Shown piece after piece: positions 6,067 to 46,002 of a stretch of 64,000 nt of DNA; positions within the stretch are counted from its first letter, which is position 1, and each line of letters begins with the position of its first letter. The stretch is from Allobosea sp. Leaf344. GTDB lineage: Bacteria > Pseudomonadota > Alphaproteobacteria > Rhizobiales > Beijerinckiaceae. Made by a program: the position numbers and the translations under genes. The notes under the pieces are model-generated. The model was not told the DNA's origin, did not search any database, and saw only the letters and a list, made by a program, of their open reading frames with translations. Location: contig NZ_LMRT01000009.1 in the NCBI RefSeq assembly GCF_001426225.1, forward strand, positions 433,594-497,593. Direction: 5' to 3'.

Positions 6067-7011
6067 ATGACCCGATATCACGACCAGATCGCCGAAGCCG
6101 CTGCGCGCATAGCGGGCCATGCCCGCGTCACCCCGGTGATGCGGCTGGGCAGCGGAGCGTTCGGCTCGGAGGCGGATATCTCGCTGAAGCTCGAATCCCT
6201 CCAGCATGCCGGCTCTTTCAAGACGCGCGGCGCCTTCAACAATCTCCTGTCGCTGCAGGTGCCGGAGGCCGGCGTCTCCGCCGCCTCGGGGGGCAATCAC
6301 GGCGCCGCCGTGGCCTTCGCGGCGCGCGAGCGCGGGGTCAAGGCCACCATCTTCGTTCCCGAGATCTCGCCGGCCGCGAAGATCGAGGCGATCCGCCGCT
6401 TCGGCGCCGATGTCAGGATCGGCGGCGCGCAATATGACGATGCCCAGGCCGCCTGCGACCGGTTCGTCGCCGAAAGCGGCGCGCTCAAGATCCATCCCTT
6501 CGCGGCGATCGAGACGATCCTCGGCCAGGGCACGCTCGCCCGCGAGTGGCATGAGCAGGAGCCCGATCTCGACACGGTGCTGGTCGCGGTCGGCGGCGGC
6601 GGCCTGATCTCGGGCATCGCCGCCTGGTTCGCCGGCAGCCGGGTCAAGGTCGTCGGCGTCGAGCCCGAGCATTCGCGCGCTCTGCATGCGGCGCTGGCGG
6701 CCAGCGGCCCGGTCGACGTGACCGTGCAATCGGTGGCCGCGGATTCGCTGGGCGCCCGCAATGTCGGCCCGCTGGTCCACGAGATCTGCCGCGACACGGT
6801 CGAGCAGGTCGCGCTGGTGCCGGACGCCGCGATCACGGCGGCGCAGGTGACGCTGTGGCGGGATTTCAGGCTGGCGGTGGAGCCGGGCGGCGCGGCGGCG
6901 CTCGGCGCGCTGCTCTCCGGCGCCTACCGGCCGCAACCCTGCGAGAGGCTGGGCGTGCTGATCTGCGGCGCCAATGTCGACCTCGCCAAGCTCGCCGCCC
7001 TGCAGGGCTGA
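6067..7011 (+). CDS. Threonine/serine dehydratase family PLP enzyme
   Basis: Fold-type II PLP enzyme of 314 residues, cytoplasmic. The Schiff-base lysine is Lys52 in GSFKTRGA, the phosphate/substrate loop is SGGNHG, and the cofactor phosphate loop is VGGGGLISGI. The length fits a catabolic threonine or serine ammonia-lyase without the C-terminal ACT regulatory domain of biosynthetic IlvA. The expected reaction is threonine or serine to 2-oxoacid plus ammonia; threo-3-hydroxyaspartate dehydratase or serine racemase activity are alternatives in this subfamily. It is preceded by a 145-base gap and followed by the MaoC gene on the same strand. Confidence 0.85.
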   Translation: MTRYHDQIAEAAARIAGHARVTPVMRLGSGAFGSEADISLKLESLQHAGSFKTRGAFNNLLSLQVPEAGVSAASGGNHGAAVAFAARERGVKATIFVPEISPAAKIEAIRRFGADVRIGGAQYDDAQAACDRFVAESGALKIHPFAAIETILGQGTLAREWHEQEPDLDTVLVAVGGGGLISGIAAWFAGSRVKVVGVEPEHSRALHAALAASGPVDVTVQSVAADSLGARNVGPLVHEICRDTVEQVALVPDAAITAAQVTLWRDFRLAVEPGGAAALGALLSGAYRPQPCERLGVLICGANVDLAKLAALQG

Positions 7012-7112
7012 AGGCGCCTGCGCCCATCGTCGGGGGGTGAGAGGCTGGACGCGGGCCGGTGCTGCGACGCACAATGCGGCCCGTGTTCCCGAAGCCCAGC
7101 CCGAGACGAGCC

Positions 7113-8174
7113 ATGCCCGATTCCGCGCCCAAGACCGATGATGGCCGCTTCTTCGAGGATTTCCGGCTCGGCGAGACCATCATCCACGCCACGCCGCGCA
7201 CCGTCACCTCGGGCGACGTCTCGCTCTACACGGCGCTCTACGGCCCGCGTTTCGCCGTCCAATCCTCCGATGCCTTCGCCCGCGGCCTCGGCTATCCCGC
7301 GGCGCCGGTCGATGATCTCCTGGTCTTCCACATCGTCTTCGGCAAGACGGTGCCGGACATCTCGCTGAACGCGGTCGCCAATCTCGGCTATGCCGATGGC
7401 CGCTTCCTCGCCCCGGTCTTCCCCGGCGACACGCTCACCGCGCGCTCGGAGGTGATCGGGCTGAAGCAGACCTCGTCCGGCGATGCCGGCATCGTCTATG
7501 TCCGCTCGACCGGCTTCAACCAGGACGGCGTCACGGTGCTGAGCTACGCGCGCTGGGTGCTGGTGCGCAAGCGCAGCCCGGGCACGCCGGCGCAGGCCGA
7601 GCATGTGCCGGAGCTCGCCGGGAGCGTGCCGCCGGAGGCGTTGGGCCGGGCCTGCCCGCCCCTCGACGCGAGCGCCTATGACAGGCTACTCGCCGGCTCG
7701 GCGCATCTCTGGGGCGATTACCGGCCGGGCGAACGCATCGACCACAGCGACGGCATGACGGTCGAGGAGGCGGAGCATCAGCTGGCGACGCGGCTCTACC
7801 AGAATACGGCGAAGGTGCATTTCGACGGGCATCGCGCGCGCGAGACCCGCTTCGGCAAGCGGCTGATCTATGGCGGCCATGTCATCAGCCTGGCGCGGGC
7901 CCTGTCCTTCAACGGGCTCGGCAACGCCTTCCATCTCGCCGCCGTCAATGGCGGGCGCCATGTCGCGCCGCTCTTCGCCGGCGACACCGTCTACGCCTGG
8001 AGCGAGGTGCTGGAGACCGCCGCCCTGCGCGGGCGCGACGATCTCGGCGCGCTGCGCCTGCGTCTCGTTGCCACCCGGAACCGTCCCTGCGCCGATTTCC
8101 CGCTCAGGCAGGACGAGGGCTATGCCGAGGGGGTGATCCTGGATTTCGACTATTGGGCGCTGATCCCGCGCTGA
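7113..8174 (+). CDS. Double-hotdog MaoC hydratase, mesaconyl-CoA-hydratase-like
   Basis: A 353-residue protein with two MaoC-type hotdog halves. The first (about residues 10-160) begins GRFFEDFRLGETIIHATPRTVTSGDVSLY and contains ARSEVIGLKQTSSG. The second (about 205-350) contains RYQNTAKVHFD-like sequence and YGGHVISLARALS. This architecture and length match mesaconyl-CoA (beta-methylmalyl-CoA) hydratases of the ethylmalonyl-CoA pathway, but I cannot exclude another enoyl-CoA hydratase. ATG 7113 is favoured over the in-frame start at 7059, which adds a non-conserved stretch. It lies just upstream of sdhCDAB, which would take pathway-derived succinate onwards. Confidence 0.75.
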   Translation: MPDSAPKTDDGRFFEDFRLGETIIHATPRTVTSGDVSLYTALYGPRFAVQSSDAFARGLGYPAAPVDDLLVFHIVFGKTVPDISLNAVANLGYADGRFLAPVFPGDTLTARSEVIGLKQTSSGDAGIVYVRSTGFNQDGVTVLSYARWVLVRKRSPGTPAQAEHVPELAGSVPPEALGRACPPLDASAYDRLLAGSAHLWGDYRPGERIDHSDGMTVEEAEHQLATRLYQNTAKVHFDGHRARETRFGKRLIYGGHVISLARALSFNGLGNAFHLAAVNGGRHVAPLFAGDTVYAWSEVLETAALRGRDDLGALRLRLVATRNRPCADFPLRQDEGYAEGVILDFDYWALIPR

Positions 8175-21273: not shown

Positions 21274-21612
21274 TCAGTCGCCCTCGCCCGGATTCGGCGA
21301 GAAATGCGCTTCGAGCTTGCCGGCCACGCCGTCGAAGGCCTTGGCATCGGCGGGAGCCTCCTTCTTCTGGGTGATGTTCGGCCAGGAGGAGGCGTATTTC
21401 GAATTGAGCTGCAGCCAGCTTTCCAGGCCCGGCTCGGTGTCGGGCTTGATCGCCTCGGCGGGGCATTCCGGTTCGCAGACGCCGCAATCGATGCATTCAT
21501 CGGGATGGATGACGAGCATGTTCTCGCCTTCGTAGAAGCAATCGACCGGACACACTTCGACGCAGTCCATGTACTTGCACTTGATGCAGTTCTCAGTGAC
21601 CACATACGTCAT
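21274..21612 (-). CDS. fdxA: 7Fe ferredoxin
   Basis: A 112-residue soluble electron carrier. The [3Fe-4S] part is [25 protein letters not shown] and the [4Fe-4S] part is [12 protein letters not shown]. The C-terminal extension (about residues 60-112) is typical of FdxA in alphaproteobacteria. ATG 21612 is used; the in-frame ATG at 21720 would add 36 unconserved residues. The helicase, S4, fdxA, carD order on one strand is recurrent in Hyphomicrobiales. The redox partner is unknown. Confidence 0.95.
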
Positions 21613-21726
21613 AGCCGTCCAGTCCTTCCGACACGCCCGAGCCTGCCATAAAGCCCCGGGCCGCTCGCGATTCAAGCCCGAACTTTGCCGCCTCACTTCG
21701 GCAAATTCATATGCATACAAACGAGT

Positions 21727-33834: not shown

Positions 33835-33971
33835 GTCACCCCCGAGGCGGGAGGTAACCGACCGCGCGTCACCCGGGTTCCATGCGAGGCGCCGCGGTGC
33901 CGGCCGGGAGCCAGGTGCGGCGGCCGCCACTCTGTGCCATGATGGCGTCCCCGCAGCCGAAGGCACCGCTT

Positions 33972-34502
33972 ATGCCGCTGATCAGCCCGAGCCAGGCGAC
34001 GCTCGTCATCATCGATGTCCAGGCCAGGCTGATGCCGGCGATCCATGACGGGGGCCGCGTTCTCGAGAATGCGCGCCGCCTGGTCGATGCCGCCGGCCTC
34101 CTCGGCCTGCCGCTGCTGATGACGGAGCAGAATCCGGACGGGCTCGGCGGCACCGTGCCGGAACTCGCCGGCAGCGGCCCGGTGATCAGAAAGATGAGCT
34201 TCGATTCCTGCGCCGAACCCGCCTTCCTCGCCGCCCTGGCGGGCGAGCGCGACCTGGTCGTCTGCGGCTGCGAGGCGCATGTCTGCGTGCTGCAGACGGT
34301 GATCACCCTGCTCTCCTTCCGCAGGCGGGTCTATCTCGTCCAGGATGCGGTGGGCTCGCGCCGGGAGGAGTCGAAATCCGCCGCCATCACGCGCATGCAG
34401 CGTCACGGCGCGGAGATCGTCACCACCGAGATGGTGGTGTTCGAATGGCTGCGCAGCGCCAGCCATCCGCAGTTCCGCCCGGTGTCGAAGCTGATCCGCT
34501 GA
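33972..34502 (+). CDS. Isochorismatase-family cysteine hydrolase
   Basis: A 176-residue hydrolase with the family's Asp-Lys-Cys triad: Asp in LVIIDVQARLM, Lys in VIRKMSFDS, and Cys in CGCEAHVCVLQT. The short length and the sequence after the Cys are like the YcaC group rather than true nicotinamidases, so the substrate is open. ATG 33942 is an alternative start. The gene converges on the TRAP permease 31 bases further on. A link to the nearby pyridine-nucleotide-like module would be speculative. Confidence 0.85.
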   Translation: MPLISPSQATLVIIDVQARLMPAIHDGGRVLENARRLVDAAGLLGLPLLMTEQNPDGLGGTVPELAGSGPVIRKMSFDSCAEPAFLAALAGERDLVVCGCEAHVCVLQTVITLLSFRRRVYLVQDAVGSRREESKSAAITRMQRHGAEIVTTEMVVFEWLRSASHPQFRPVSKLIR

Positions 34503-34533: not shown

Positions 34534-36450
34534 TCAGCCCGCCACGGCGACGGAGCGCGAGGCGCGACGGTTCGCCAGCAGCCACAGCATCATCGCCGCG
34601 AAGAGCACCATGCCGGCGATGCGCATCGCATCCGAGGGCAGCAGCAGGGCGAGCCCCGCCGCCAGCAGCAGACCGCGCCTCAGCCCATCCAGCCTGACCA
34701 GGCAATAGCCCTCCAGCGCCGCGTTGAGCGCCACCACCCCGGCCACCACCAGCGTCACCGACAGCAGGATCGTCCCGGCCGATCCGACCAGCAGCAAAGC
34801 CGGGTGATAGATGAAGACGAAGGGCAGGATGAAGGCGACCATCGCGATGCGGCAGGCGAGGACCGCGATCTTGACCGGGTTCGCCTGGGCGATCGAGGCC
34901 GCGGCGAAGGCGGCGACGGCCACGGGCGGGGTGATCGCCGACATCGAGGCGATATAGACGATGAAGAGATGCGCCGGCAGGAGCTCGATGCCGAGCGCGA
35001 TCAGCGCCGGCGCCGCCAGCACCGCCGACAGGGCGTAGACCGCCGGCGTCGGCATGCCCATGCCCAGCACGATGATCACGAAGGCGGCGGTGACGACCGT
35101 CAGCAGCGGGTTGCCATCGGCCATGACGAACAGGCCGGAGCTGATCTTCCCGGTGAGATCGGTCATCGACAGGGTCCCGACCACCAGCCCGGCGATCGCG
35201 CAGGCGACACCGACCCCGATCATGCCCTTCATCCCGTCGCTCAGCCCGTAGAACAGCGCCTTGACCAGCTTCAGCGGCGAGCGCTCGCGCAGGATCGCGA
35301 CCGGCAGCAGCGCCGCGCAGGCGATGGCGCCGGCGAAGGAGGGCCGGTTCAGGCTGAGCACGCCCCAGACCAGCAGGCCGATCGGCAGCAGATAGATCCA
35401 GTGACGCGTCAGCACGTCGCGAAGCCGCGGCGTCTCGCCCTCCGACATCGGCTTCAGCCCGTCGCGATGCGCCTTGAAATGCACGGCGAGGAAAACGGAG
35501 AGATAATAGAGCAGCGCCGGGACCAGCGCCGCCAGCACGATCGAGGCATAGGGAATGCCGGTGAAATCGGTCATCAGGAAGGCGGCCGAGCCCATCACCG
35601 GCGGCAGCAGCGCCCCGCCGGTCGAGGCCGCGGATTCGATCGCGCCGGCATGCGTCCGGCTCGTCCCGGTGCGGATCATCAGCGGGATGCTGAAGGAGCC
35701 GGTGGTCACGACATCGGCGGTGGGCGAGCCCGAGATCGACCCGTAGAGCCCCGAGGAGACGACGGCGACCTTGCTCGCCCCGCCGACCTGCCGGCCGACC
35801 AGGCTGTTGGCCATTTCGTAGAAGAAATCCGCCCCGCCGAACCGGTCTAGCAAGGCTCCGAACACCACGAAGACGAAGACCAGGAAGGCCGCCACCTCCA
35901 GCGCCGGGCCGAACAGCCCATTGGTCGAGAAGACGAGGTGATCGACCATTTCCTGGGTGGTGAAGCCGCGATGGGCGAAGGCGCCGGTGAGCCTGTTGCC
36001 GAGCACCGCATAGGCCAGGAAGACGAGGACCAGCGTCACCAGCGTCATGCCGATGCAGCGCCGCGTCGCCTCCAGCACCAGCAGGATCAGCAGGATCGAG
36101 GCCGCGATGTCGAGCGGCGTCAGCTCGTCGATCATCGGCAGCCGCAGCTCGTGGACCGGCCGCATCGCGATGAAATAGGCGCAGGCCGCGAGCGACAGGG
36201 CGGCGAGCGCGATCGCCCACCAGGAGCGGCCGCGCGACCGCCCCGGATGTCCGGTCGCGGTCAGGAAGGCGAGGCTCAGCACCGCGCCGAGGAAGAGGAA
36301 CAGCGCGATCTCGCGCGGGACATACCAGCCGAAGGCCATCGCCAGCAGCAGAAGCCCGGTCGCCGCCCCGACGAGATGGACGAAACCCTGTTCGGCGGCG
36401 GGCAGGACCCGGGACTGGCCCGGCGCGAGCCGGCGGAGCAGCGTCAGCAT
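34534..36450 (-). CDS. TRAP transporter fused permease (TAXI type, DctQ-DctM fusion)
   Basis: A 638-residue inner-membrane protein with many membrane segments. It fuses the small (about residues 1-160) and large TRAP permease subunits, the arrangement found with TAXI binding proteins. Typical large-subunit stretches are FFYEMANSLVGRQVGGASKVAVVSSGLYGSISGSPTADVVTTGSFSIP and GMGMPTPAVYALSAVLAAPAL. Transport is driven by an ion gradient. It is the second gene of a reverse-strand operon after the binding protein. Confidence 0.92.
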   Translation of the reverse strand: MLTLLRRLAPGQSRVLPAAEQGFVHLVGAATGLLLLAMAFGWYVPREIALFLFLGAVLSLAFLTATGHPGRSRGRSWWAIALAALSLAACAYFIAMRPVHELRLPMIDELTPLDIAASILLILLVLEATRRCIGMTLVTLVLVFLAYAVLGNRLTGAFAHRGFTTQEMVDHLVFSTNGLFGPALEVAAFLVFVFVVFGALLDRFGGADFFYEMANSLVGRQVGGASKVAVVSSGLYGSISGSPTADVVTTGSFSIPLMIRTGTSRTHAGAIESAASTGGALLPPVMGSAAFLMTDFTGIPYASIVLAALVPALLYYLSVFLAVHFKAHRDGLKPMSEGETPRLRDVLTRHWIYLLPIGLLVWGVLSLNRPSFAGAIACAALLPVAILRERSPLKLVKALFYGLSDGMKGMIGVGVACAIAGLVVGTLSMTDLTGKISSGLFVMADGNPLLTVVTAAFVIIVLGMGMPTPAVYALSAVLAAPALIALGIELLPAHLFIVYIASMSAITPPVAVAAFAAASIAQANPVKIAVLACRIAMVAFILPFVFIYHPALLLVGSAGTILLSVTLVVAGVVALNAALEGYCLVRLDGLRRGLLLAAGLALLLPSDAMRIAGMVLFAAMMLWLLANRRASRSVAVAG

Positions 36451-36490: not shown

Positions 36491-37474
36491 CTATTTCAGC
36501 AGGCCCGCCTTGCGATAGGCCTGTTCCGCCCCCGGATGCAGCGTCAGCGGCTGGACCCGCGCCAGATCCGCCGGCTCGAGCTTGGCGAGCATGGCATGGG
36601 CCTGTTTGAGATAGGGGAAGTGCTTGATCATCCCCTCGACGATCGTCGCCGCATCCTCGTCCTTCATCTCCGCCGAGGCGAACAGCACCACGCTGCCGGT
36701 GATGGTGGCGATCTCGGCCGGCTGGAACGGGTAGGTGCCCGCCGGCACGGTGATCCCCGCCGTGCCGAGAAGACCGTTCAGCCTGGCGCTGGCGGCCGGG
36801 CTGATGCCGAGCATCCTGACTTTCATCTCGCGCGTCGCGCCGTTGATCTGACCCGAGGGAAAGGCCAGCATGTTGATGATGATGTCGGCCTGGCCGTTCT
36901 TCATCATCTCCAGCCCGGCATTGTAGTCGACATGATGGATGCGCCCGCCCCAGCCCTCGATATCCCTGGCGGTGATGCCATAGGCCTTGAACACCTCCTC
37001 GCCGGTGACGGCCATCAGCGTGCCGCGCTGGTTGAGCACGACCCGGACCGGCTTCTTGGCGGCGAGGACGGATTCGAAGCTGTCGATCCCGGAATCCTCG
37101 CGCACCAGAATCTGGACCGCGGCCATCGGATCGATCAGCGCCAGCGCGCGCAGATTGGTCACCGGCGCCTTGAACGGCTCCTCGCCGGCCTGGGCGCGCT
37201 TGGCGAGCTGCGCATGGGCGATGCCGAGCTCGATCTTGCCCTGCGAGACCAGCTGGATATTGGCGGCTTCCCGCCCCGGCTCATAGCCGAAGGACACCCC
37301 GGGCGATTCCCGCCGGATCGTCTCGCCGATCGCCGTGCCGACGGCGCTCCAGGCCCCGCCGACCGACCCGCCGGAGAGGGTGATCTTCTTCAGCCCGCCG
37401 CTCTGCGCCAGCGCCGGCAGGGTCCCCACCGCCAGCCCCGAAGCCAGCATCGCCGCGATCGCAAACCGCTTCAT
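36491..37474 (-). CDS. TAXI-family TRAP transporter solute-binding protein
   Basis: A 327-residue periplasmic binding protein with signal peptide MKRFAIAAMLASGLAVGTLPALA. The mature start GLKKITLSGGSVGGAWSAVGTAIGETIRR is the TAXI (TRAP-associated extracytoplasmic immunogenic) signature. Known TAXI ligands include carboxylates and glutamate-like compounds; here the ligand is unknown. The divergent nadC/phosphorylase operon and a shared operator-like site suggest a nucleotide-, nucleobase- or pyridine-related ligand, which is inference. Confidence 0.92.
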   Translation of the reverse strand: MKRFAIAAMLASGLAVGTLPALAQSGGLKKITLSGGSVGGAWSAVGTAIGETIRRESPGVSFGYEPGREAANIQLVSQGKIELGIAHAQLAKRAQAGEEPFKAPVTNLRALALIDPMAAVQILVREDSGIDSFESVLAAKKPVRVVLNQRGTLMAVTGEEVFKAYGITARDIEGWGGRIHHVDYNAGLEMMKNGQADIIINMLAFPSGQINGATREMKVRMLGISPAASARLNGLLGTAGITVPAGTYPFQPAEIATITGSVVLFASAEMKDEDAATIVEGMIKHFPYLKQAHAMLAKLEPADLARVQPLTLHPGAEQAYRKAGLLK

Positions 37475-37644
37475 CACACGCTCTCCCCCAGGATTCGGGC
37501 GCCGGCCGCGCCATGCTCGCCGATCGGACCGGGCTGCCGCGGCGCGCCCGATCCTGGGGCCAGCCGTAGCAGGCTCTTGCATGCAAAACCTCCGGAGGCC
37601 GTTGCCGCCCCGTGGCGGCGCGTCGCATCGCGCACCGTCAGGCG

Positions 37645-37673
37645 AGTTTGTTGGTGTAGAAACGAGTTGTCAA
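37645..37673 (-). promoter_or_regulatory. TRAP operon promoter with operator-like site
   Basis: On the reverse strand TTGACA (37673-37668) is followed after 17 bases by CAAACT (37650-37645). Between them lies GTTGGTGTAGAAACGA (37650-37665, forward reading), which matches 14 of 16 bases of the site before nadC at 37841-37856. The 464-base gap between the two starts (37475-37938) holds these two elements and no credible gene. Confidence 0.45.
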
Positions 37674-37813
37674 TGGCGATCTCCGGCCGCGTCAGCCTGC
37701 GCCTGAATCCTGGGCATCGCACTGAAAAATGAGGCAAACTCTGCAAAACCTAATCTCGCGCGTCCTGGCGTGAAGGCGCGAGGGCTACGCTGGCATCGTG
37801 ACGTGCACGGCTC

Positions 37814-37856
37814 TTGACAGCGCAGCCCACCCTGATCATCGTTGGTATACAAACGA
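37814..37856 (+). promoter_or_regulatory. nadC-operon promoter with near-palindromic operator
   Basis: A perfect TTGACA at 37814-37819 precedes the near-palindrome TCGTTGGTATACAAACGA (37839-37856), symmetric except for one base pair. The repeat would cover the -10/+1 region. Its TTGGTATACAA core resembles GntR-family operators. A 14-of-16 match lies in the TRAP promoter 190 bases away, so one regulator may control both directions. No GntR gene is present in the window. Confidence 0.5.
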
Positions 37857-37938
37857 CATAGCTCCAGGCCAGCCCGATCCGATCGCTCCCCGGCTGCGCC
37901 TGCCTTCCGCCACCCGAGGGAGCCGCCGGGGCGCCAGA

Positions 37939-38772
37939 ATGTATGACCGTTTCACGACCGAGCGGCTGATCGACCTCTGGCTGGCGGAGGATATCGGCTC
38001 TTGCGATCTGACGGTGCAGGTCATGATCGAGCCGAGCGAGACCGGCGCCTTCCGGATGAATGCGCGCGAGCCGATGGTCGTGGCGGGGCTCGAGGTCGCG
38101 GCCGCGGTGTTCAGGCGCTATGAGCCGGCGCTGTCGCTGGAACTCGCCGCGGCCGATGGCGACCGCGTCGAGGCAGGCGCGACGCTGCTGCTGGTGTCGG
38201 GCCCGGCCCGCGGCATCCTCACCGCCGAACGCACCGCGCTGAACATCGTGCAGCGCCTGTCCGGCATCGCCACCGAGACGGCGCGCTATATCGATGTCAT
38301 CAAGGGGACATCTGCGCGGCTGATAGACACCCGCAAGACGACCCCCGGCCTGCGCATGCTCGAGAAACATGCGGTGACCTGCGGCGGCGGGTTGAATCAT
38401 CGCCTGGGGCTCGATGGCGGCGTCATGATCAAGGATAATCACATCGCGATCTGCGGTGGCGTCATGGCCGCCGTAGCGCGGGCCCGGCGCAGCCTGCCGG
38501 TGCTGACCAAGATCGAGGTCGAATGCGACAGCCTCGACCAGGTCAGGCAGGCCGTCGAGGCGGAGGCGGACGTGATCATGCTCGACAACATGCCCGTCGC
38601 GACGATGCGCGAGGCCGTGGCGCTGATCGCCGGGCGCGCCAAGGTCGAGGCGTCGGGCGGCATCCGCTTCGACACGATCCGCGCCATCGCCGAGACCGGG
38701 GTGGACTATATTTCGACCAGCAAGATCACCCAATCGGCCCCGGCGGTCGATATCGGGCTCGACGAGGCCTGA
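37939..38772 (+). CDS. nadC: Quinolinate phosphoribosyltransferase family protein (NadC homologue)
   Basis: A 277-residue type II phosphoribosyltransferase. Conserved stretches include EDIGSCDLT, TAERTALNIVQRLSGIAT, DTRKTTPGLRMLEKHAV, GGGLNHRLGL, IKDNHI and KIEVECDSLDQ, so the quinolinate and PRPP sites look complete. The expected reaction is quinolinate plus PRPP to nicotinate mononucleotide. There is no nadA or nadB beside it; instead it is followed, 15 bases on, by a PhnN-AMP phosphorylase fusion. It may thus be a second copy with a salvage or catabolic role rather than the biosynthetic nadC. ATG 37939 is chosen over 37798, which would start before the operator. Confidence 0.85.
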   Translation: MYDRFTTERLIDLWLAEDIGSCDLTVQVMIEPSETGAFRMNAREPMVVAGLEVAAAVFRRYEPALSLELAAADGDRVEAGATLLLVSGPARGILTAERTALNIVQRLSGIATETARYIDVIKGTSARLIDTRKTTPGLRMLEKHAVTCGGGLNHRLGLDGGVMIKDNHIAICGGVMAAVARARRSLPVLTKIEVECDSLDQVRQAVEAEADVIMLDNMPVATMREAVALIAGRAKVEASGGIRFDTIRAIAETGVDYISTSKITQSAPAVDIGLDEA

Positions 38773-38787
38773 GGCGAAAGCGCACGC

Positions 38788-40896
38788 ATGGCTGGTGGTA
38801 CGCCGTCTGGCATCCTGTTCTTCATCGTCGGCCCCAGCGGGGCGGGCAAGGACACGCTGATCGACGGCGCCCGCGCCGTGCTGCGGCAGGATGAGCGGTT
38901 CAGCTTCGCCCGCCGGCTGATCACCCGCCCGGCCGATGCGGGCGGCGAGGCTCACGAGGCGATCGACACGGAGGGCTTCGCGGCGCTGGAGCGCGCCGGC
39001 GGGCTGCTCGTCTCCTGGCAGGCGCATGGCTTGAGCTATGGTCTGCGCGCCGATGTGCGGGACGCGCTCGCGGCCGGGCGCCATGTCGTCGCCAATGGCT
39101 CGCGCGCCGTCCTGTCGCGGCTGATCGGCCAGGTCCCGCGCCTCGTCGCCCTCGTCGTCACCGCCTCGCCCGAGATCCTGGCGCGGCGGCTGGCGGCGCG
39201 CGGGCGCGAAACCCCCGAGGATATCGCCGCGAGGCTGGCGCGCAGCCAGCTCGCGCTGCCGGACGGCGTCGAGGCGATCACCGTGATGAACGACGGCACG
39301 CCGGAAGAGGGTGTGGCGCGCCTGCTGCAGGCGCTCGAGGAGGCGACGAGCCGCCTCGCCCTGAAGCCGTTGCCGATCGATGGCTGGCGCGATCGCATCG
39401 CCTTCCTGCCGGAGGACAGCATCATCGGCGCGTCGGATTATGACGGCCCCGGCAAGGTCGAGATCTCGGCCGCCGGCCGCGCCATCCGCGCCCGCGTCAA
39501 TCTCGTGGCCGCCGGCACCCTGCTGGCGCCGCATGAGCTCGGCCTGTCGCGGGAGGCGTTTTCGGCGCTGGGCCTGCCGGAAGGTGCATCCGTCTCGCTG
39601 AAGCGGACCCCGCCGCAGCACAGCCGCGACGCCTTGCAGGCCAAGATCCGGGGCGAGGAGCTCAGCCTCGAGCAATATGAGACGCTGCTGCGCGACATCG
39701 TCGAGGGCCGCTATCCCGACAGCGAGATCGCCGCCTTCCTGGTCGCCGCGACCCGCTCGCTCAGCGATGCCGAGGTGGTGGCGCTCGCCCGCGTCCGCAC
39801 CGCCTTCTCGACCGCGCTGCGCTGGGGCGAGCCGATCGTCGCCGACAAGCATTCGATGGGCGGGATTCCGGGCAGCCGCATCACGCTGATCGTCACGCCG
39901 ATCGTGGCGGCCCATGGCATCGCCATGCCGAAAACCTCCTCGCGGGCGATCACCTCCGCCGCTGGCACCGCCGATGCGATGGAGGTGCTGGCCCGGGTCG
40001 ACCTGACGGAGGACGATGTCCGCCGCACCGTCGGCCAGGCGCGGGCCTGCATCGCCTGGAACGGCCGCCTCAACCATTCCGCCGTCGACGATGTGATGAA
40101 CGCCATCACGCGCCCGCTCGGCATCGATTCCAATCGCTGGTCGGTGGCGTCGATCATCTCGAAGAAGCTCACAGCCGGCTCGACCCATGTCATCGTCGAC
40201 CTGCCCTATGGCAGGCGGGCCAAGCTGCGCAGCCTTGAGGAGGCGGGCGAGCTCGCCGCTCTGTTCGAGCGGGTCGGCCGCGGCGTCGGCCTGCATCTCG
40301 AGGCCTGCCCAACGCGCGGCGACGCGCCGATCGGCCGCGGCATCGGCCCGGCGCTGGAGGTGCGCGACGTGCTCTGGGTGCTGGAAGGCCATCCCGACGC
40401 CCCGCAGGACCTGCGCGAGAAGGCCTTGTCCTTCGCCGCCCGCATCCTCGCCTGGGACCCGGCGATCGGCACGGCCGAGCGCGGCCGGGCGCGGGCGCTG
40501 CAGTTGCTGGATTCGGGCGCGGCGCGCGAGGCGCTGCAGCGCATCGTGGCGGCCCAGGGCGCGCGCGATCCGGCGCATCGGCCGGCGGCACCGAGCCGGC
40601 TGGTCCGGGCCGGCGCCAGCGGCGTGATCCAGGCGATCGATGGCTGGCGCATCGCCGGCATCGCCCGCAGGGCCGGCGCGCCGCTGGACAAGAGCGCGGG
40701 CATCGACCTGCTGCGCGGGGTCGGCGAGGCCGTGACCCCGGGCGAGCCGCTCTATGCGATCCACGCCCATGCCGCGCCCGATCTCGACGCCGCCTGCGCC
40801 ATGGCGCAGCAGGATGACGGCATCCTGATCGGCGCCCCGGCAGCTAATGCGACATCAGGCAGCAGACCGGCGTCTCCTGCAGCAGGTCGCGGGTGA
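38788..40896 (+). CDS. Fusion of ribose 1,5-bisphosphokinase (PhnN) and AMP phosphorylase/thymidine phosphorylase-type enzyme
   Basis: A 702-residue bifunctional protein. Residues 1 to about 190 are a P-loop kinase with Walker A GPSGAGKD (15-22) and the PhnN pattern RRLITRPADAGGEAHEAI; PhnN turns ribose 1,5-bisphosphate into PRPP. From about 200 onwards it is a complete long-form AMP phosphorylase: N-terminal domain, then DKHSMGGIPGSRITLIVTPIVAAHGIAMPKTSSRAITSAAGTADAMEVLA in parts, the phosphate- and nucleotide-binding stretch of that family. AMP phosphorylases release base plus ribose 1,5-bisphosphate, exactly the PhnN substrate, so the halves could channel it to PRPP. The end overlaps the convergent stress-protein gene by 53 bases. 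Confidence 0.88.
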   Translation: MAGGTPSGILFFIVGPSGAGKDTLIDGARAVLRQDERFSFARRLITRPADAGGEAHEAIDTEGFAALERAGGLLVSWQAHGLSYGLRADVRDALAAGRHVVANGSRAVLSRLIGQVPRLVALVVTASPEILARRLAARGRETPEDIAARLARSQLALPDGVEAITVMNDGTPEEGVARLLQALEEATSRLALKPLPIDGWRDRIAFLPEDSIIGASDYDGPGKVEISAAGRAIRARVNLVAAGTLLAPHELGLSREAFSALGLPEGASVSLKRTPPQHSRDALQAKIRGEELSLEQYETLLRDIVEGRYPDSEIAAFLVAATRSLSDAEVVALARVRTAFSTALRWGEPIVADKHSMGGIPGSRITLIVTPIVAAHGIAMPKTSSRAITSAAGTADAMEVLARVDLTEDDVRRTVGQARACIAWNGRLNHSAVDDVMNAITRPLGIDSNRWSVASIISKKLTAGSTHVIVDLPYGRRAKLRSLEEAGELAALFERVGRGVGLHLEACPTRGDAPIGRGIGPALEVRDVLWVLEGHPDAPQDLREKALSFAARILAWDPAIGTAERGRARALQLLDSGAAREALQRIVAAQGARDPAHRPAAPSRLVRAGASGVIQAIDGWRIAGIARRAGAPLDKSAGIDLLRGVGEAVTPGEPLYAIHAHAAPDLDAACAMAQQDDGILIGAPAANATSGSRPASPAAGRG

Positions 40897-41689
40897 CCCC
40901 GCCGAAGATCCATTCGCGCAGGCGGCTATGGCCGAAGGCCCCGGCGACGATCAGATCGGCATTTTCCTGCCGTGCGAGCTCGGCGAGGACCGCGATCGCC
41001 GGCTGGTCGCTGCCTGGCCGCGCCAGCGCCCGCGCCGCGATATGGTGCCCGGCGAGATAGCCGCAGACATCCTGCGCGCCGCTCTCCGCCGCCTCCTGCC
41101 CGACGGTCAGCACGATCACCGCTTCGGCCCGCATCAGGAAGGGCAGCGCGTCCCAGACCGCGCGCCGCGCCTCGCGCGTATTCTTCCAGGCGATGATCAC
41201 GCGCCGCCCCGCCAGCCGGTCGAGATGCGGCGGCACGACGAGCACCGGCCGCCCGAGTTCCATCACGAGATCGCCCGGGGACAGCGACATCGGCCCCTGG
41301 TCGGGGTCGGCGGCGCCGAGCCGGGCCATTACGACGAGATCGGCGGCGCGCGCCTGGGCCAGCATATGCTGGCGCGTGGCATCGACCGCGGCGCGCCACT
41401 CCTGGAGCGGGCAGCCCTTGGCCGCCCGGCGAAACAGCACTTCGGCCTGTTCGAGATGCTCGGCGGCGGCGCGTTTCGCTTCCTCGACCAGCACCGCATC
41501 GAGCGCCGCGACGCTGTCCCCGTAATAGGGCAGCACGATATCCTCCGCGGCGACGCCGATCAGCCGGCTGGAGAAGCGCCCGGCGAGCCCGGCCGCCAGC
41601 GCCACCGCGCTCTCCGCGCCCGGGCCGAGATGCACCGGCGCCATGATGCTGGCGTAACGCGCCTGCAGGGCCTGGCTCGATCCCGTCAT
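40844..41689 (-). CDS. Universal stress protein, two UspA domains
   Basis: A 281-residue tandem Usp. The first half is degenerate; the second (about 150-281) has a conserved ATP-loop-like stretch ADLIVAGAFGHSRLREWIFGGVTRDLL, ending PVCCLMSH. Such proteins respond to starvation or low oxygen. It lies 28 bases behind the small hypothetical gene and is probably in its operon, reading away from the FixK/FNR-like box at 42184. It ends almost like the forward-strand Usp at 42249, so the two arose by duplication. Confidence 0.88.
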   Translation of the reverse strand: MTGSSQALQARYASIMAPVHLGPGAESAVALAAGLAGRFSSRLIGVAAEDIVLPYYGDSVAALDAVLVEEAKRAAAEHLEQAEVLFRRAAKGCPLQEWRAAVDATRQHMLAQARAADLVVMARLGAADPDQGPMSLSPGDLVMELGRPVLVVPPHLDRLAGRRVIIAWKNTREARRAVWDALPFLMRAEAVIVLTVGQEAAESGAQDVCGYLAGHHIAARALARPGSDQPAIAVLAELARQENADLIVAGAFGHSRLREWIFGGVTRDLLQETPVCCLMSH

Positions 41690-41717
41690 GACGACCTCCC
41701 TGCCTTGATAGGCATGC

Positions 41718-42116
41718 TCAACCCGCCGCCGCGGCCTTCGTCAGCGTATGAATGGCGACGATCCGGAACGGCTCGAACGCCTCGTCGGCACCGCGGATCG
41801 ACAGATATTCGCCGACCGCGATCCGGTGGCGGTCGAGCTTGAAGGCGCTCTCGTCATCGTCGCTGCTGGCATCGTCGTAATCGATCTGCCAATGCGCCCC
41901 GCCGGCGCCGCCTGACCTGTGCACCAGCCAGCCATGACGATCGGGCTCGCCGGCGCGGAAGCGCCGCACCCGGCAGCGTTCGCGCTCGCTGCGCCAGGCG
42001 GCGGCGTCGAGATGGCCCTCGGCATCGACCGGCGCGATGATGTCGTAGCCGTCGCGGGCGCTGCCTTCGGGATGGGCCGCGGTGCGGCCGAGATGGAGCG
42101 TGATGCGCTGAAGCAT
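41718..42116 (-). CDS. Conserved-looking hypothetical protein, 132 residues
   Basis: I do not recognise a named family. The sequence starts MLQRITLHLGRTAAHPEGSA and continues with DGYDIIAPVDAEGHLDAAAWR and a Trp/Tyr/Asp-rich middle (GWLVHRSGG...HWQIDYDDASSDDDESAF). It ends with a beta-rich EYLSIRGADEAFEPFRIVAIHTL. It is soluble and has no signal peptide. GAGGTC lies just before the ATG at 42116. It shares the divergent promoter region with the forward Usp gene and is followed closely by another Usp gene, so a role in the same stress or low-oxygen response is likely. Confidence 0.72.
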   Translation of the reverse strand: MLQRITLHLGRTAAHPEGSARDGYDIIAPVDAEGHLDAAAWRSERERCRVRRFRAGEPDRHGWLVHRSGGAGGAHWQIDYDDASSDDDESAFKLDRHRIAVGEYLSIRGADEAFEPFRIVAIHTLTKAAAAG

Positions 42117-42183
42117 GGGTGACCTCGTCTGCGATGCGTTGTCGTCCTGAAAAAGAGCGTCACACCAATCCGGCAGAGGCGAA

Positions 42184-42197
42184 TTGATCCAGCGCAA
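42184..42197. promoter_or_regulatory. FixK/FNR-like box between divergent stress genes
   Basis: TTGATCCAGCGCAA fits the FixK2/FNR pattern TTG(A/C)-N6-(T/G)CAA. It lies midway between the divergent starts at 42116 and 42249. Usp genes under FixK, FNR or Anr control are well known, so oxygen-dependent activation of both directions is plausible. No clear -10 was identified. Confidence 0.55.
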
Positions 42198-42248
42198 GGT
42201 TGCGACAAGGCGATCTGACATGGTCCTCCCACACAGGAGAGCCAGCCC

Positions 42249-43088
42249 ATGTATGACAGCATCAAGAGCGTTCTGGTCGTGTTCACCGAGGAAGGCCGCG
42301 GCGAAACCAGCGCGGCGGTTCCCTATGCGATGTCGCTGGCGCAGCAGGCTGCCGCGCATCTGACGCTGCAGGCGGCCTCGGTCCGCTATGCCGTGCCCTC
42401 CTCCCTGATCAATGATTTCGCCGCCGAGATCGTCGGCAAGGAAAACCGCCGCATGGCCGGGCTGGCCCAGCGCCTGGCGGATGATGCGCGCTTCACGGCC
42501 GACCTCGCCGGCGTGACATGCACGGTCGAGGCGCCGCAATTGCTCTATCCCGGCCTGACCCAGCGCTTCATCGCCTATGCCCGCGTCCATGACCTCGCCA
42601 TCCTCGATGCCGAGCGCGACACGCTGGAGATCGACCGGGGCTTGATCGAGGCCGCGATCTTCGAGACCGGCCGCCCGGCGCTGATCGTGCCGCCGAGCAG
42701 CCTGAGCTTCTCGGCGAGGCGCGTGCTGGTGGCCTGGGATGGCGGCGCGGCCGCCGCCCGCGCCGTCGCCGATGCGATTCCCTTCATCGCCGCGGCCGAG
42801 GAGGTGGTGATCGTCTCGGTGACCGGCGAGAAGGATCTATCGGACCGCATCCCCGGCGCGGAGCTCGCGCCGCATCTCGCCCGCCACGGTGCCAAGGTCT
42901 CGGTCAAGACGCTGCCCATGCCGAGCGCGGGCGTCGCCGAAGCGATCCAGGCCGAGGCGAAGGCCTTCGGGGCCGATCTCATGGTCTCCGGCGCCTTCAA
43001 ACATTCGCGCCTGCGGGAATGGCTGCTCGGCGGCGTGACCCAGTCGCTGCTGAAGGATTGCCCGGTGCCGGTGCTGATGAGCCACTAG
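42249..43088 (+). CDS. Universal stress protein, two UspA domains
   Basis: A 279-residue tandem Usp. It starts MYDSIKSVLVVFTEEGRGETSAAVPYAMSLA, and the second half carries ARRVLVAWDGGAAAARAVADAIPF and ADLMVSGAFKHSRLREWLLGGVTQSLLKDCPVPVLMSH. The last 40 residues are nearly those of the reverse-strand Usp at 40844, which marks them as paralogues. AGGAGA precedes the ATG by 8 bases. The Pat-type gene follows after 217 bases and may share its control. Confidence 0.9.
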   Translation: MYDSIKSVLVVFTEEGRGETSAAVPYAMSLAQQAAAHLTLQAASVRYAVPSSLINDFAAEIVGKENRRMAGLAQRLADDARFTADLAGVTCTVEAPQLLYPGLTQRFIAYARVHDLAILDAERDTLEIDRGLIEAAIFETGRPALIVPPSSLSFSARRVLVAWDGGAAAARAVADAIPFIAAAEEVVIVSVTGEKDLSDRIPGAELAPHLARHGAKVSVKTLPMPSAGVAEAIQAEAKAFGADLMVSGAFKHSRLREWLLGGVTQSLLKDCPVPVLMSH

Positions 43089-43305
43089 GCCGCACCGGAC
43101 GGGCCCAAGCCGTCGCCCCGCAATGGGGCGACGAGATCAAACCGTCACCTCCATCCCCGATGATCCCACCCGACCGCCGATCCCGGGGCACGCCGGATCG
43201 CGCATGCCTCGGCTTCGGCGGCAAAGCTTGTATCATGGCGGGCGCGCCGTCGAGGCGCCTGGCCCGCCAGATCCCTTCCGGCCCAACCAGACGAGACGCC
43301 ACGCG

Positions 43306-46002
43306 ATGAGCATCCGGAATTTCGACGCCTTCTTCCGGCCGCGCTCGATCGCGCTGATCGGGGCCAGCAACCGCGCCGGCTCGATCGGCGACGTGCTGGC
43401 GGCGAATCTGCTGGGGGCCGGCTTCGCCGGGCCGGTGATGTGCGTGAACCCGCGCGAAACCGCGATCCGCTCGACGCTCAGCTACAGATCGGTCGCGGAA
43501 CTGCCGGTCGCGCCCGATCTCGCGGTCATCGCCACGCCGGCCCAGGGTGTGCCGGCCATCGTCGCGGAACTGGGCGCGCGCGGCTGCCGCGCCGCCGTGG
43601 TGATCAGCGCCGGCTTCGAAGGGCGCGACGGCAGCGATCTGCAGCAGAGGCTGCTCGATGCGACGCGTCCGCATCTGATGCGGATCATCGGCCCGAATTG
43701 CCTCGGGCTGATCTCCACGCCGCGCGCGATCAACGGCAGCTTCGCGCATCTGACCCCGAAACAGGGCCATATCGCGCTGGTCAGCCAGTCCGGCGCGATC
43801 ATCGCCGCCATGCTGGGCTGGGCCCATGAACGCGATATCGGCTTCTCCCATGTCGTCTCGCTGGGCGACATGGCCGATGTCGATTTCGGCGACATGCTCG
43901 ATTATCTCTGCACCGATCCGACGACCCGGGCGATCCTGCTCTATGTCGAGACGATCACCCATGCGCGAAAATTCATGTCGGCGGCGCGCGCCGCCGCGCG
44001 CACCAAGCCCGTGCTCGTCGTCAAGGCCGGCCGCAGCGCCGCCGGCGCCAAGGCGGCGATGTCGCATACCGGCGCGCTGACCGGCGCCGATGCCGTCTAT
44101 GACGCCGCCTTCCGCCGCGCCGGCCTGCTGCGGGTGCGCGAACTGGACGAGCTCTTCGCCGCTTCGGCGATCCTCGCCACCGGCATGCGGGTCCATGGCG
44201 ACCGGCTGACCATCATCACCAATGGCGGCGGGGCCGGCGTGCTCGCCGTCGACGCCTTGGCCGATCGCCGGCTCGCAGCCGCCACGCTGAGCCCGGACTC
44301 GCTCGCCGCCCTGAGTCGGGTGCTGCCCGAAGCCTGGTCGCATGGCAATCCGGTCGATATTCTCGGCGATGCGAAGGCCGACCGCTACGCCGCGGCGCTG
44401 GAGATCGTGATGGCCGACCCGGCCAGCGACGCGGTGCTGGTACTCAATTGCCCGACCGCGCTCGCCGCGGGCGAGGAAGCGGCCGAGGCCGTCGCCGCGG
44501 CGGTCGACGGCAATCGCGCGGTCCCCGTCCTGACCAATTGGCTCGGCGGCGACGCCACCCTGGCGTCGCGCGCGATCCTGGGCCAACACCGCATCCCGAA
44601 TTTCGAAAGCCCGGAACAGGCGGTGCGCGCCTTCGGCCATCTCGCGGAATTCCGGCGCAACCAGACTTTGCTGCTCGAGACACCCTCGGCCGGCGTCGCC
44701 ATCCCCAAAGCCATGGTGGACGAGGCCAAGGCGATGATCGAGACGGTGCGCGGCGATGCCCGCACCATCCTCACCGAGCCCGAATCCAAGCGGCTGCTCG
44801 CCTTGTTCGGCATTCCCACCGTCGCGACCCGCATCGCCGCGGATCCGGCCGAGGCGGGCCGCTTCGCCGAGGAGATCGGCGGCTCCGTCGCGGTGAAGAT
44901 CCATTCCCCGGACATCACCCACAAATCCGATGTCGGCGGCGTGGCGCTACGGCTGACCTCCGGCGCCGCTGCGCGGGCGGCGGCGGAGGAGATGCTGGCG
45001 CGGATCGCCAAGCTCCGCCCGGATGCGCGCGATTTGCGCTTCACCGTCCAGCAGATGGTGTCGCGCCCGCAGGCGCATGAGCTGATCCTCGGCCTCGCCC
45101 GCGATCCCACCTTCGGGCCGATCATCCTGTTCGGCGAGGGCGGTACGGCGACGGAGGTGATCGCCGATCGCAGCATCGGTCTGCCGCCGCTGAATTCGGT
45201 GCTGGCGCAGGACATGATCGAGGGCACGAGGATCGCCAAGCGGCTCGCCGGCTATCGCCATGTCCCGCCCGCGCCGATGGGGCAGATCGTGGAGGTGCTG
45301 CTGCGCCTCTCCGAAATCGCCGTCCATCTGCCCGACATCGTCGAGCTCGACATCAACCCGCTGCTCGCCGATGCGCAGGGGCTGATCGCGCTCGACGCCC
45401 GCGTGGTGATCTCGGAAACCAAGGCGCTGGCGCCGCTCTACGCGATCACCCCCTATCCCGCCGAGCTGGAGCAGGAATTCCGCCTCAGCGACGGGCAGGA
45501 GCTGATGTTCCGGCCGATCAGGCCCGAGGACGAGGTGCCGATCAGCGAGATGGTCAGGCTCTGCACGCCCGAGGATCTGCGCATGCGCTTTCTCGGCCCG
45601 GTCAAGCATTTCCAGCACGACATGGCGGCGCGACTCTCGCAGATCGACTATGACCGCGAGATGGCCTTCGTCGCGGTGGAAGCCGGCACCGCCTATGGCG
45701 CCGGGCCGATCTACGGGGTGGTTCGCATCGCCGGCGATCCGGAGAGGTCGACGGCGGAATTCGCCATCATCGTCCGCTCCGACATGAAGGGACGCGGACT
45801 GGGCTATCGGCTGCTCGCCGAGATGATCGCCCATGCCAGGCGGGCCGGCTATGCCGAGATCCATGGCGACGTCTTCAGCGAGAACACCGCCATGCTCGGG
45901 CTGGCCGAAGAGCTGGGCTTCGTGCTGCAGCCGCGCGAGCCGGGCGAGGATACGCGCCGCGTCCGCCTCGTCCTGCGGCCCGGGCAGCCCGCGACCTCCT
46001 GA
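43306..46002 (+). CDS. Acyl-CoA ligase (ADP-forming)-like / GNAT acetyltransferase (Pat/PatZ type)
   Basis: An 898-residue protein with the full Pat/PatZ architecture. A CoA-binding domain comes first (RPRSIALIGASNRAGSIGDV), then a succinyl-CoA-ligase-like domain (LVSQSGAIIAAML; AAMSHTGALTGADAVYD). An ATP-grasp domain spans about 480-700 (VKIHSPDITHKSDVGGVALRL), and a GNAT domain about 735-890 (IIVRSDMKGRGLGYRLLAEMI). In this family the ligase part senses acetyl-CoA or nucleotide and the GNAT part acetylates lysines, notably of acetyl-CoA synthetase. The SHTGALTG histidine is present, so residual acyl-CoA ligase activity cannot be excluded. ATG 43306 fits the first strand. Confidence 0.88.
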   Translation: MSIRNFDAFFRPRSIALIGASNRAGSIGDVLAANLLGAGFAGPVMCVNPRETAIRSTLSYRSVAELPVAPDLAVIATPAQGVPAIVAELGARGCRAAVVISAGFEGRDGSDLQQRLLDATRPHLMRIIGPNCLGLISTPRAINGSFAHLTPKQGHIALVSQSGAIIAAMLGWAHERDIGFSHVVSLGDMADVDFGDMLDYLCTDPTTRAILLYVETITHARKFMSAARAAARTKPVLVVKAGRSAAGAKAAMSHTGALTGADAVYDAAFRRAGLLRVRELDELFAASAILATGMRVHGDRLTIITNGGGAGVLAVDALADRRLAAATLSPDSLAALSRVLPEAWSHGNPVDILGDAKADRYAAALEIVMADPASDAVLVLNCPTALAAGEEAAEAVAAAVDGNRAVPVLTNWLGGDATLASRAILGQHRIPNFESPEQAVRAFGHLAEFRRNQTLLLETPSAGVAIPKAMVDEAKAMIETVRGDARTILTEPESKRLLALFGIPTVATRIAADPAEAGRFAEEIGGSVAVKIHSPDITHKSDVGGVALRLTSGAAARAAAEEMLARIAKLRPDARDLRFTVQQMVSRPQAHELILGLARDPTFGPIILFGEGGTATEVIADRSIGLPPLNSVLAQDMIEGTRIAKRLAGYRHVPPAPMGQIVEVLLRLSEIAVHLPDIVELDINPLLADAQGLIALDARVVISETKALAPLYAITPYPAELEQEFRLSDGQELMFRPIRPEDEVPISEMVRLCTPEDLRMRFLGPVKHFQHDMAARLSQIDYDREMAFVAVEAGTAYGAGPIYGVVRIAGDPERSTAEFAIIVRSDMKGRGLGYRLLAEMIAHARRAGYAEIHGDVFSENTAMLGLAEELGFVLQPREPGEDTRRVRLVLRPGQPATS

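Follow-up and report, generated by a model that had tools for sequence, protein, structure and literature searches.

The 64,000-nucleotide stretch of DNA analysed here (the window, whose positions serve as coordinates) comes from a genome of the genus Bosea (strain Leaf344; 4.35 Mb in 15 contigs; G000, where labels in G and L denote genomes and loci of this analysis). Divergent from a TAXI-type TRAP transporter it carries an operon of nadC, encoding quinolinate phosphoribosyltransferase (37939-38772, + strand), and, 15 bp further on, a gene (38788-40896, +) whose 702-aa product joins a PhnN kinase to a long-form nucleoside-monophosphate phosphorylase. We propose that this locus is a module that recycles phosphoribosyl pyrophosphate (PRPP) while turning imported quinolinate into nicotinate, a reading to which we give a probability of roughly two in three. 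It is also probable, by a slightly more cautious estimate, that the module represents a proteobacterial degradative cycle in which PRPP behaves like a coenzyme, NadC attaches quinolinate to ribose 5-phosphate and so permits its decarboxylation, a phosphorylase specific for nicotinate mononucleotide (NaMN) splits the nucleotide and PhnN recharges the carrier, an enzyme of nicotinamide adenine dinucleotide (NAD) synthesis thereby taking the first catabolic step.

In the proposed cycle, quinolinate would be imported by the TAXI-TRAP transporter, or in other genomes by a Bug, NMT1-type ABC or MFS importer, an assignment that for the Bug type is aided by the published ligand binding of Bug27. NadC, recognized by its family and active site, would combine quinolinate with PRPP to give NaMN, CO2 and pyrophosphate (PPi), the reaction known for its family. 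The phosphorylase domain, assigned by family and with NaMN as its presumed substrate, would split NaMN with phosphate (Pi) into nicotinate and ribose 1,5-bisphosphate; the PhnN domain, likewise assigned by family and with the activity known for Escherichia coli PhnN, would convert ribose 1,5-bisphosphate and ATP to PRPP and ADP, closing the cycle, and the fusion would hand on ribose 1,5-bisphosphate inside one protein. With PPi hydrolysed, the net reaction would be quinolinate + ATP + H2O -> nicotinate + CO2 + ADP + Pi, at a cost of one ATP per quinolinate, and PRPP would be a reusable carrier without net gain or loss. The nicotinate would pass to the co-regulated nicotinate dehydrogenase, 6-hydroxynicotinate reductase (Hnr) and enamidase, a degradation of the Eubacterium barkeri type, or through PncB to NAD. 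That NaMN is the nucleotide split and nicotinate the net product is suggested by the gene neighbours, the shared operator and the lack of nadA described below. Such a cycle would explain why the three activities occur as a set, why PhnN is joined to a phosphorylase whose relatives stand beside prs, why the importer type is interchangeable and why the operator is one of nicotinate degradation.

The fusion protein and its linkage to nadC

The fusion gene is a single intact open reading frame without internal stop. Residues 8-185 of its product belong to the PhnN family (TIGR02322, 196.8 bits, cut-off 156) and contain the motif GPSGAGKD at residues 15-22, and residues 189-681 belong to the long-form phosphorylase family by two profiles (NF003338, 596.9 bits, cut-off 434; TIGR02645, 461.0 bits, cut-off 434.6). 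The match of the latter domain to the AMP-phosphorylase equivalog TIGR03327 reached 378.6 bits against a cut-off of 535, and the domain is therefore not filed as an adenosine monophosphate (AMP) phosphorylase. The original prediction had described one 702-residue protein joining a PhnN kinase to a long-form AMP phosphorylase; the intact frame and the curated profiles bear out the joining and the long-form nucleotide phosphorylase family, and the designation AMP is given up with the missed equivalog cut-off. The best relative of the phosphorylase domain in the PDB is 4ga5 (283 bits), and an AlphaFold model of the fusion (mean predicted local distance difference test score 88.8, predicted template modelling score 0.68) has the archaeal AMP phosphorylase structures 4ga5 and 4ga4 as its top fold matches. 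The fusion and 4ga5 have in common an SSRAITS-AGTAD stretch, where the nucleoside phosphorylase 5oln has SGRGLGHTGGTID; this stretch presumably binds the 5'-phosphate. The Burkholderiales fusions (L081, L096, L099, L100, L101 and L103) are shorter than the others, and alignments suggest that they lack much of the phosphorylase N-terminal domain between PhnN and the core.

NadC of the window (277 aa) matches TIGR00078 with 327.6 bits (cut-off 198.4) and has the carboxylate-holding His, Arg and Lys; the His-Arg pair and the Lys, at the spacing of H160, R161 and K171 of human QPRT, are conserved in the linked NadC throughout the 32 genomes with the nadC-fusion pair. Its start was set by the gene finder at the ATG at 37939 over a GTG at 37798, giving the length of most relatives. 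The phosphorylases were compared over 88 domains, with four genomes of a later sample standing outside the tabulation. Nineteen positions are conserved to at least 85% in nadC-linked fusions and to less than 35% in prs-linked relatives, and several of these near-fixed positions cluster in one loop (codons 425-442, 40060-40113, +) beside the presumed base site, just before the presumed base-contact residues. The changes from unfused to fused proteins are mostly Gly to N425, Ala, Gly or His to R427, Leu to H430 and Ile to N438, and the Arg and the His gained in this way would fit the nicotinate carboxylate. N425 is also seen in 3 of 22 archaeal or candidate phyla radiation (CPR) rows, the fusions linked to cytochrome bc1 genes (see below) keep R427, H430 and N438 but not N425, and the strict loop pattern matched one (L172) of the four late genomes.

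The samples at family, order, class and phylum level contained the fusion in 4 of 99, 14 of 397, 4 of 385 and 5 of 398 genomes, respectively, the window genome being included each time and one short-linker match being counted in the last; it is rare but real. Among its carriers are Bosea sp. WAO, Variovorax, Caballeronia, Ottowia thiooxydans, Zwartia hollandica, Pacificitalea manganoxidans and a strain labelled Pseudomonas sp. SLFW. The set comprises 39 distinct fusion genomes after merging L062 with L090 and L096 with L176 (identical) and L097 with L102 (the same metagenome-assembled genome); an all-against-all DNA comparison of the loci returned only the first two pairs as duplicates. PhnN and the phosphorylase are two adjacent genes in L095, and L097 and L126 are interrupted by contig ends. 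This number of distinct genomes rules out an assembly artefact, the first of the dangers foreseen by the original prediction. The second, a lack of conserved linkage in relatives, did not materialize either: in the tabulated neighbourhoods nadC lies directly upstream of the fusion in 32 of the 39 genomes, the two genes being between -14 and 50 bp apart in all but one of the 27 loci listed, a linkage far beyond chance. Four new nadC-fusion genomes of the later sample (G832, G545, G857 and G1105) all had nadC in this place, and one of the four had a nicotinate gene nearby, namely NicC, with Hnr or enamidase in none.

An 89-row tree of phosphorylase domains, built by a quick method with Shimodaira-Hasegawa-like approximate likelihood ratio test (SH-aLRT) support only, unites the 33 fusion-type domains in one clade (support 100), next to 13 unfused phosphorylases that are mostly linked to prs, which suggests that the fusion probably arose once. 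The bc1-linked fusions nest within the nadC-linked clade, so that the nadC linkage is probably the older state and was lost in this group; elsewhere the link is kept across alpha- and betaproteobacteria and the one genome labelled Pseudomonas, with shuffled surroundings. A Rieske protein was seen in five of the six bc1-type loci, the contig of the sixth being short.

Two other origins were tried and rejected. The fusion does not appear to be a phosphonate (C-P lyase) gene, as nadC, Hnr, enamidase or NicC occurred at none of 31 loci of unfused PhnN, and when viral contigs were scanned with the window protein, the 11 stretches that matched by pattern included no relative, which speaks against a phage origin. 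The database records for the fusion in Variovorax and Pacificitalea read 'phosphonate metabolism protein PhnN', a label that the present analysis would correct.

Importers, nicotinate genes and the shared operator

The importer of the window consists of a TAXI-family periplasmic solute-binding protein (36491-37474, -; TIGR02122, 141.6 bits, cut-off 84.35) and a TAXI-type TRAP transporter fused permease (34534-36450, -; TIGR02123, 572.2 bits, cut-off 320.65); the latter lies just beyond the stretch 36491-40896 first described and is counted in the unit. The longest open reading frame of the binding protein extends to 37582, and the gene finder prefers the shorter form starting at 37474, with a promoter region of 464 bp between it and the divergent nadC. 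No regulator gene was predicted between importer and nadC by the gene finder, no NadQ model having been run. An importer gene adjoins the nadC-fusion pair in 23 of 32 loci and comes from four unrelated families (TAXI-TRAP in 12, Bug in 4, NMT1-type ABC in 4, MFS in 3); several of the nine loci without one are short contigs, and two of them, L100 and L103, have a more distant branched-chain-type ABC binding protein. The divergent arrangement of a solute importer and the operon, as originally predicted, is seen in the window itself.

Genes for Hnr (identified by plasmid homologues of 65-75% identity, some of which bear this annotation), enamidase or NicC occur in the examined flank of 9 of the 32 nadC-fusion loci and in none of 49 control loci, made up of 18 unfused-phosphorylase and 31 unfused-PhnN loci (Fisher p 0.0001, a value that ignores kinship, three of the nine being from the window's genus). 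Hnr adjoins the module in L060, L061, L062/L090, L087, L091, L092 and L100, enamidase in L100 and L104 (PDB 2vun, E 2.8e-107) and NicC in L175 (PDB 5eow, E 1.3e-170). Six distinct gene orders are found among these nine loci, which argues for several independent linkages. In G004 the nadC-fusion run continues into a nicotinate-dehydrogenase-like Mo enzyme, Hnr, a PRK04334 protein (which we take to be UPF0280) and AA_synth genes; in L091 and L092 the Mo enzyme, Hnr and PRK04334 genes lie upstream of nadC, with no AA_synth gene in the stretch. Hnr is divergent from nadC in the Bosea relatives, enamidase and Hnr follow the module in Zwartia, enamidase precedes nadC in Ottowia, and in G1105 an uninterrupted series on one strand comprises nicC, an MFS gene, nadC and the fusion. 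Neither in fusion loci (L094 and L175, the latter resembling an aldehyde dehydrogenase subunit) nor in controls (L105 and L165) did distant Mo-hydroxylase matches, at 24-28% identity, enter the counts. FRG-domain proteins recur beside the nadC-fusion pair (L060, L064, L080, L081, L094, L096 and L174).

The unfused phosphorylases have prs in 16 of 18 loci and nadC in none. Beside them (L075-L079, L084-L086, L105-L109, L111, L113 and L119) the PRPP synthetase gene is often accompanied by one for an MBL-fold hydrolase, and some of these loci are on plasmids with metal or stress genes.

The nadC gene of the module is the sole nadC found in the window genome, and nadA was not found there with a model that recovered it in 12 of 14 control genomes. 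The original prediction had asked for a second nadC accompanied by nadA, and neither turned up (nadB was outside the search). Without nadA, NadC must use quinolinate from outside or from another route, conceivably the kynurenine one, and the combination of a retained nadC, a missing nadA and a linked importer is one expected of quinolinate salvage, again with nadB outside the search. One copy of pncB is present, and NAD is therefore obtainable from nicotinate. The genome also has the genes that begin the degradation of nicotinate: a cluster on contig C13 (L167) holds Hnr, 66% identical to the query, nicotinate-dehydrogenase genes, UPF0280 and enamidase, along with a pair of AA_synth genes and a MarR regulator. 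In this cluster a Mo/FeS nicotinate-dehydrogenase-like subunit and Hnr appear as a single open frame of 1465 aa (L167 8076-12473, -), and the long open frames seen around Hnr in G318, G336 and G253 suggest that the two may be joined there too. Across the genomes searched, nadA was found in 2 of 16 (G221 and G428), and a further nadC in 4 of 12 nadC-fusion genomes, in G428 near nadA.

A palindrome, TCGTTGGTATACAAACGA, lies in the divergent promoter region of the window at 37839-37856, 100 bp upstream of the nadC ATG (score 25.8), and an exact pattern match finds it unchanged in that of G004; a weaker operator-like palindrome lies on the TAXI side (37648-37665, score 20.6). The scores come from a matrix of six sites from three Bosea relatives only, with a site threshold of 18, and the nicotinate cluster L167 was outside the training set. 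There, 118 bp ahead of the nicotinate-dehydrogenase operon, L167:14491 reaches a score of 30.5, and the sites at window 37839 and L167:14491 in the same genome point to a nicotinate regulon that would include the module. Sites scoring at least 18 occur in 14 of 29 untrained nadC-fusion loci, each of the 14 having at least one upstream of nadC, the TAXI gene or a Mo-dehydrogenase gene, at 19-365 bp. Four of five separate nicotinate clusters carry the operator at dehydrogenase or Hnr promoters, and in the fifth, L171, which belongs to a Bosea lacking the fusion, it precedes another gene. There was no match of at least 18 in 802,044 bases of the 49 control loci, nor any site in the seven fusion loci without nadC. 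In L061 and L062, from Bosea relatives, a MarR gene adjoining the module is preceded by a site at a distance of 27 and 45 bp, respectively, and the MarR regulator is therefore the likely binder. In L172 (G832, 6399-8163) a chemoreceptor gene is divergent from nadC with a weak operator ahead of it, as if for swimming towards the substrate.

Several neighbouring features were not counted in the unit. A convergent universal-stress-protein gene (40844-41689, -) overlaps the 3' end of the fusion gene by 53 bp; it shares the downstream stretch 40844-46002 with a second gene of this kind and one for an acyl-CoA ligase carrying a GNAT domain, and stress proteins also adjoin one unfused phosphorylase on a Bradyrhizobium plasmid. 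On the other side, the isochorismatase gene at 33939-34502 was considered as a nicotinamidase or maleamate hydrolase and left out, because the closest PDB entries bear the names MAR1, isochorismatase-like and YcaC. The trpD of the window genome (C13 455272-456229) consists of two adjacent pieces in different frames, by a frameshift or a true split.

Weighing of the alternatives

Several observations weigh against the quinolinate-to-nicotinate reading. NaMN as the phosphorylase substrate is its weak point: R427 is not private to the fusions, being Arg in 4 of 13 members of the nearest unfused group, and we found no report of NaMN phosphorolysis by the nucleotide phosphorylase family in the open-licence literature. 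Characterised TAXI proteins bind glutamate, according to the accessible text of PMC12344293. No nicotinate-degradation gene is found in the flank of 23 of the 32 nadC-fusion loci, some of the flanks being short, and no operator of at least 18 in 15 of the 29 untrained loci, among them L064, L065, L173 and the named Burkholderiales save Paraburkholderia L081, which has a weak site. One operator match of the window (21707-21724) has no clear link to the module; it lies 95 bp before a ferredoxin gene (21274-21612, -) and may be due to chance or mark a further member of the regulon. Hnr was detected in 10 of 14 nadC-fusion genomes searched and is absent from the other four (G436, G169, G1105 and G1058), and it is also present in 11 of 22 genomes that carry the unfused phosphorylase only. 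In the order sample it occurs in 6 of 8 nadC-fusion genomes versus 85 of 389 others (Fisher p 0.002, relatives not being independent). Because of the 11 of 22 and the dependence among relatives, genome-level co-occurrence is weak evidence, and adjacency and the operator are preferred to it. Finally, in seven of the 39 genomes the fusion does not adjoin nadC: one is L098, and six are of one genus (L067-L070, L072 and L073), with the fusion behind cytochrome bc1 genes and no match to nadC anywhere in the genome. All six have pncB, and their fusions must use some nucleotide without NadC, possibly NaMN made by PncB.

It is unlikely, in our estimate, that the module simply salvages NAD from quinolinate in the manner of Bordetella, with importer and NadC supplying NaMN for NAD and the fusion doing nothing beyond securing PRPP. 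The missing nadA and single nadC of the window genome would fit this, as would G221, which has nadA and whose linked nadC is the sole copy found; that nadC may therefore serve NAD too. NadC with a Bug protein and without the de novo pathway has been described in Bordetella, and salvage with PhnN supplying PRPP is the published reading of bug27-nadC-phnN in Variovorax and Jezberella (accessible text of PMC11452294). Yet it would leave the phosphorylase half without a special role, and it sits poorly with an operator common to nicotinate degradation, with neighbours that are degradative enzymes from two different routes, with the supply of NAD from nicotinate through PncB and with the further nadC kept in 4 of 12 genomes. 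NAD also needs little PRPP, for which prs would suffice (prs was outside the searches of the window genome).

The original prediction had a base swap in mind, in which AMP or the cytidine or uridine monophosphate (CMP, UMP) would react with Pi and ATP to give a free base and PRPP, to be spent by NadC on an imported pyridine carboxylate. Its closed logic of phosphorylase, PhnN and NadC in one operon is upheld by the families and their linkage, and an archaeal enzyme of the family acts on just these three nucleotides (PMC9700705, available text) and has in common with the fusion the SSRAITS-AGTAD stretch. General nucleotides are nevertheless disfavoured as substrates, since the neighbours, the operator and the absence of nadA favour NaMN instead; several base-side loop residues are almost invariant among the clustered fusions and seldom found in other phosphorylases, the AMP-phosphorylase cut-off is missed, and the unfused relatives adjoin prs (16 of 18 loci) and not nadC. 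A base swap accounts for the fusion, but for neither the neighbours nor the operator, and we consider it very improbable. Still slightly less credible is a fusion acting as a general sink for ribose 1,5-bisphosphate or nucleotides, the adjacency of nadC being an old accident kept by shared regulation. The six one-genus genomes with the fusion behind bc1 genes and no nadC match speak for it, but these fusions nest in the nadC-linked clade as if the link had been lost, and elsewhere that link survives in alpha- and betaproteobacteria and the genome labelled Pseudomonas despite shuffled surroundings.

Relation to known systems and implications

The nearest published system is quinolinate salvage in Bordetella, which resembles the present one in pairing NadC with an importer protein (Bug69 or Bug27) where de novo NAD synthesis is incomplete. 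According to the accessible text of PMC11452294, Bug27 and Bug69 bind quinolinate with Kd values of 136 and 70 nM, and bug27 adjoins nadC and phnN in Variovorax and Jezberella, where PhnN was suggested to feed PRPP to NadC for NAD. Our Variovorax locus L080 likewise consists of nadC, the fusion and a Bug gene, its 'phnN' being the fusion. The difference is one of reading: those loci were taken as an NAD route and the gene was called phnN, whereas here it is a fusion with the surroundings and the operator of nicotinate degradation. The word phosphorylase is absent from the main text of that paper, and 'AMP phosphorylase' occurs together with 'PhnN' only in PMC9700705 in the open-licence literature.

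The archaeal nucleoside-monophosphate (AMP) phosphorylase of the pentose bisphosphate pathway belongs to the same family (4ga5) and yields the same product, ribose 1,5-bisphosphate, which in archaea goes to an isomerase and then RuBisCO, or to a phosphatase and aldolase (PMC9700705, available text). In the present protein, by contrast, PhnN is fused on and would make PRPP, and the base-side loop departs from the archaeal one. PhnN of the C-P lyase pathway is of the same family (TIGR02322) and converts ribose 1,5-bisphosphate to PRPP, and the E. coli protein reportedly has a role in NAD synthesis; it differs in that here it is fused to a phosphorylase and follows nadC, which was near none of the 31 unfused PhnN loci. 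Nicotinate degradation through Hnr and enamidase or through NicC is related by its genes flanking 9 of the 32 modules and by the operator in common in alphaproteobacteria; it has been described as starting from nicotinate, and the module would add an entry from quinolinate. The link of nadC, phnN and importer is already in print for a few betaproteobacteria (accessible text of PMC11452294); the present analysis adds the phosphorylase half and the distribution, the forms with a TAXI, ABC or MFS importer, the neighbouring degradative genes and the operator.

The route from quinolinate to nicotinate would be a new connection between two known pathways. If correct, it would provide a gene-level catabolic entry for quinolinate, a common metabolite of tryptophan and NAD, extend the substrates of nucleotide phosphorylases to NaMN, and have a biosynthetic phosphoribosyltransferase act as a decarboxylase with PRPP regenerated at every turn. 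NadC genes of bacteria that lack NadA would likewise take on another meaning, and the bug27-nadC-phnN neighbourhood published in PMC11452294 would gain a different reading.

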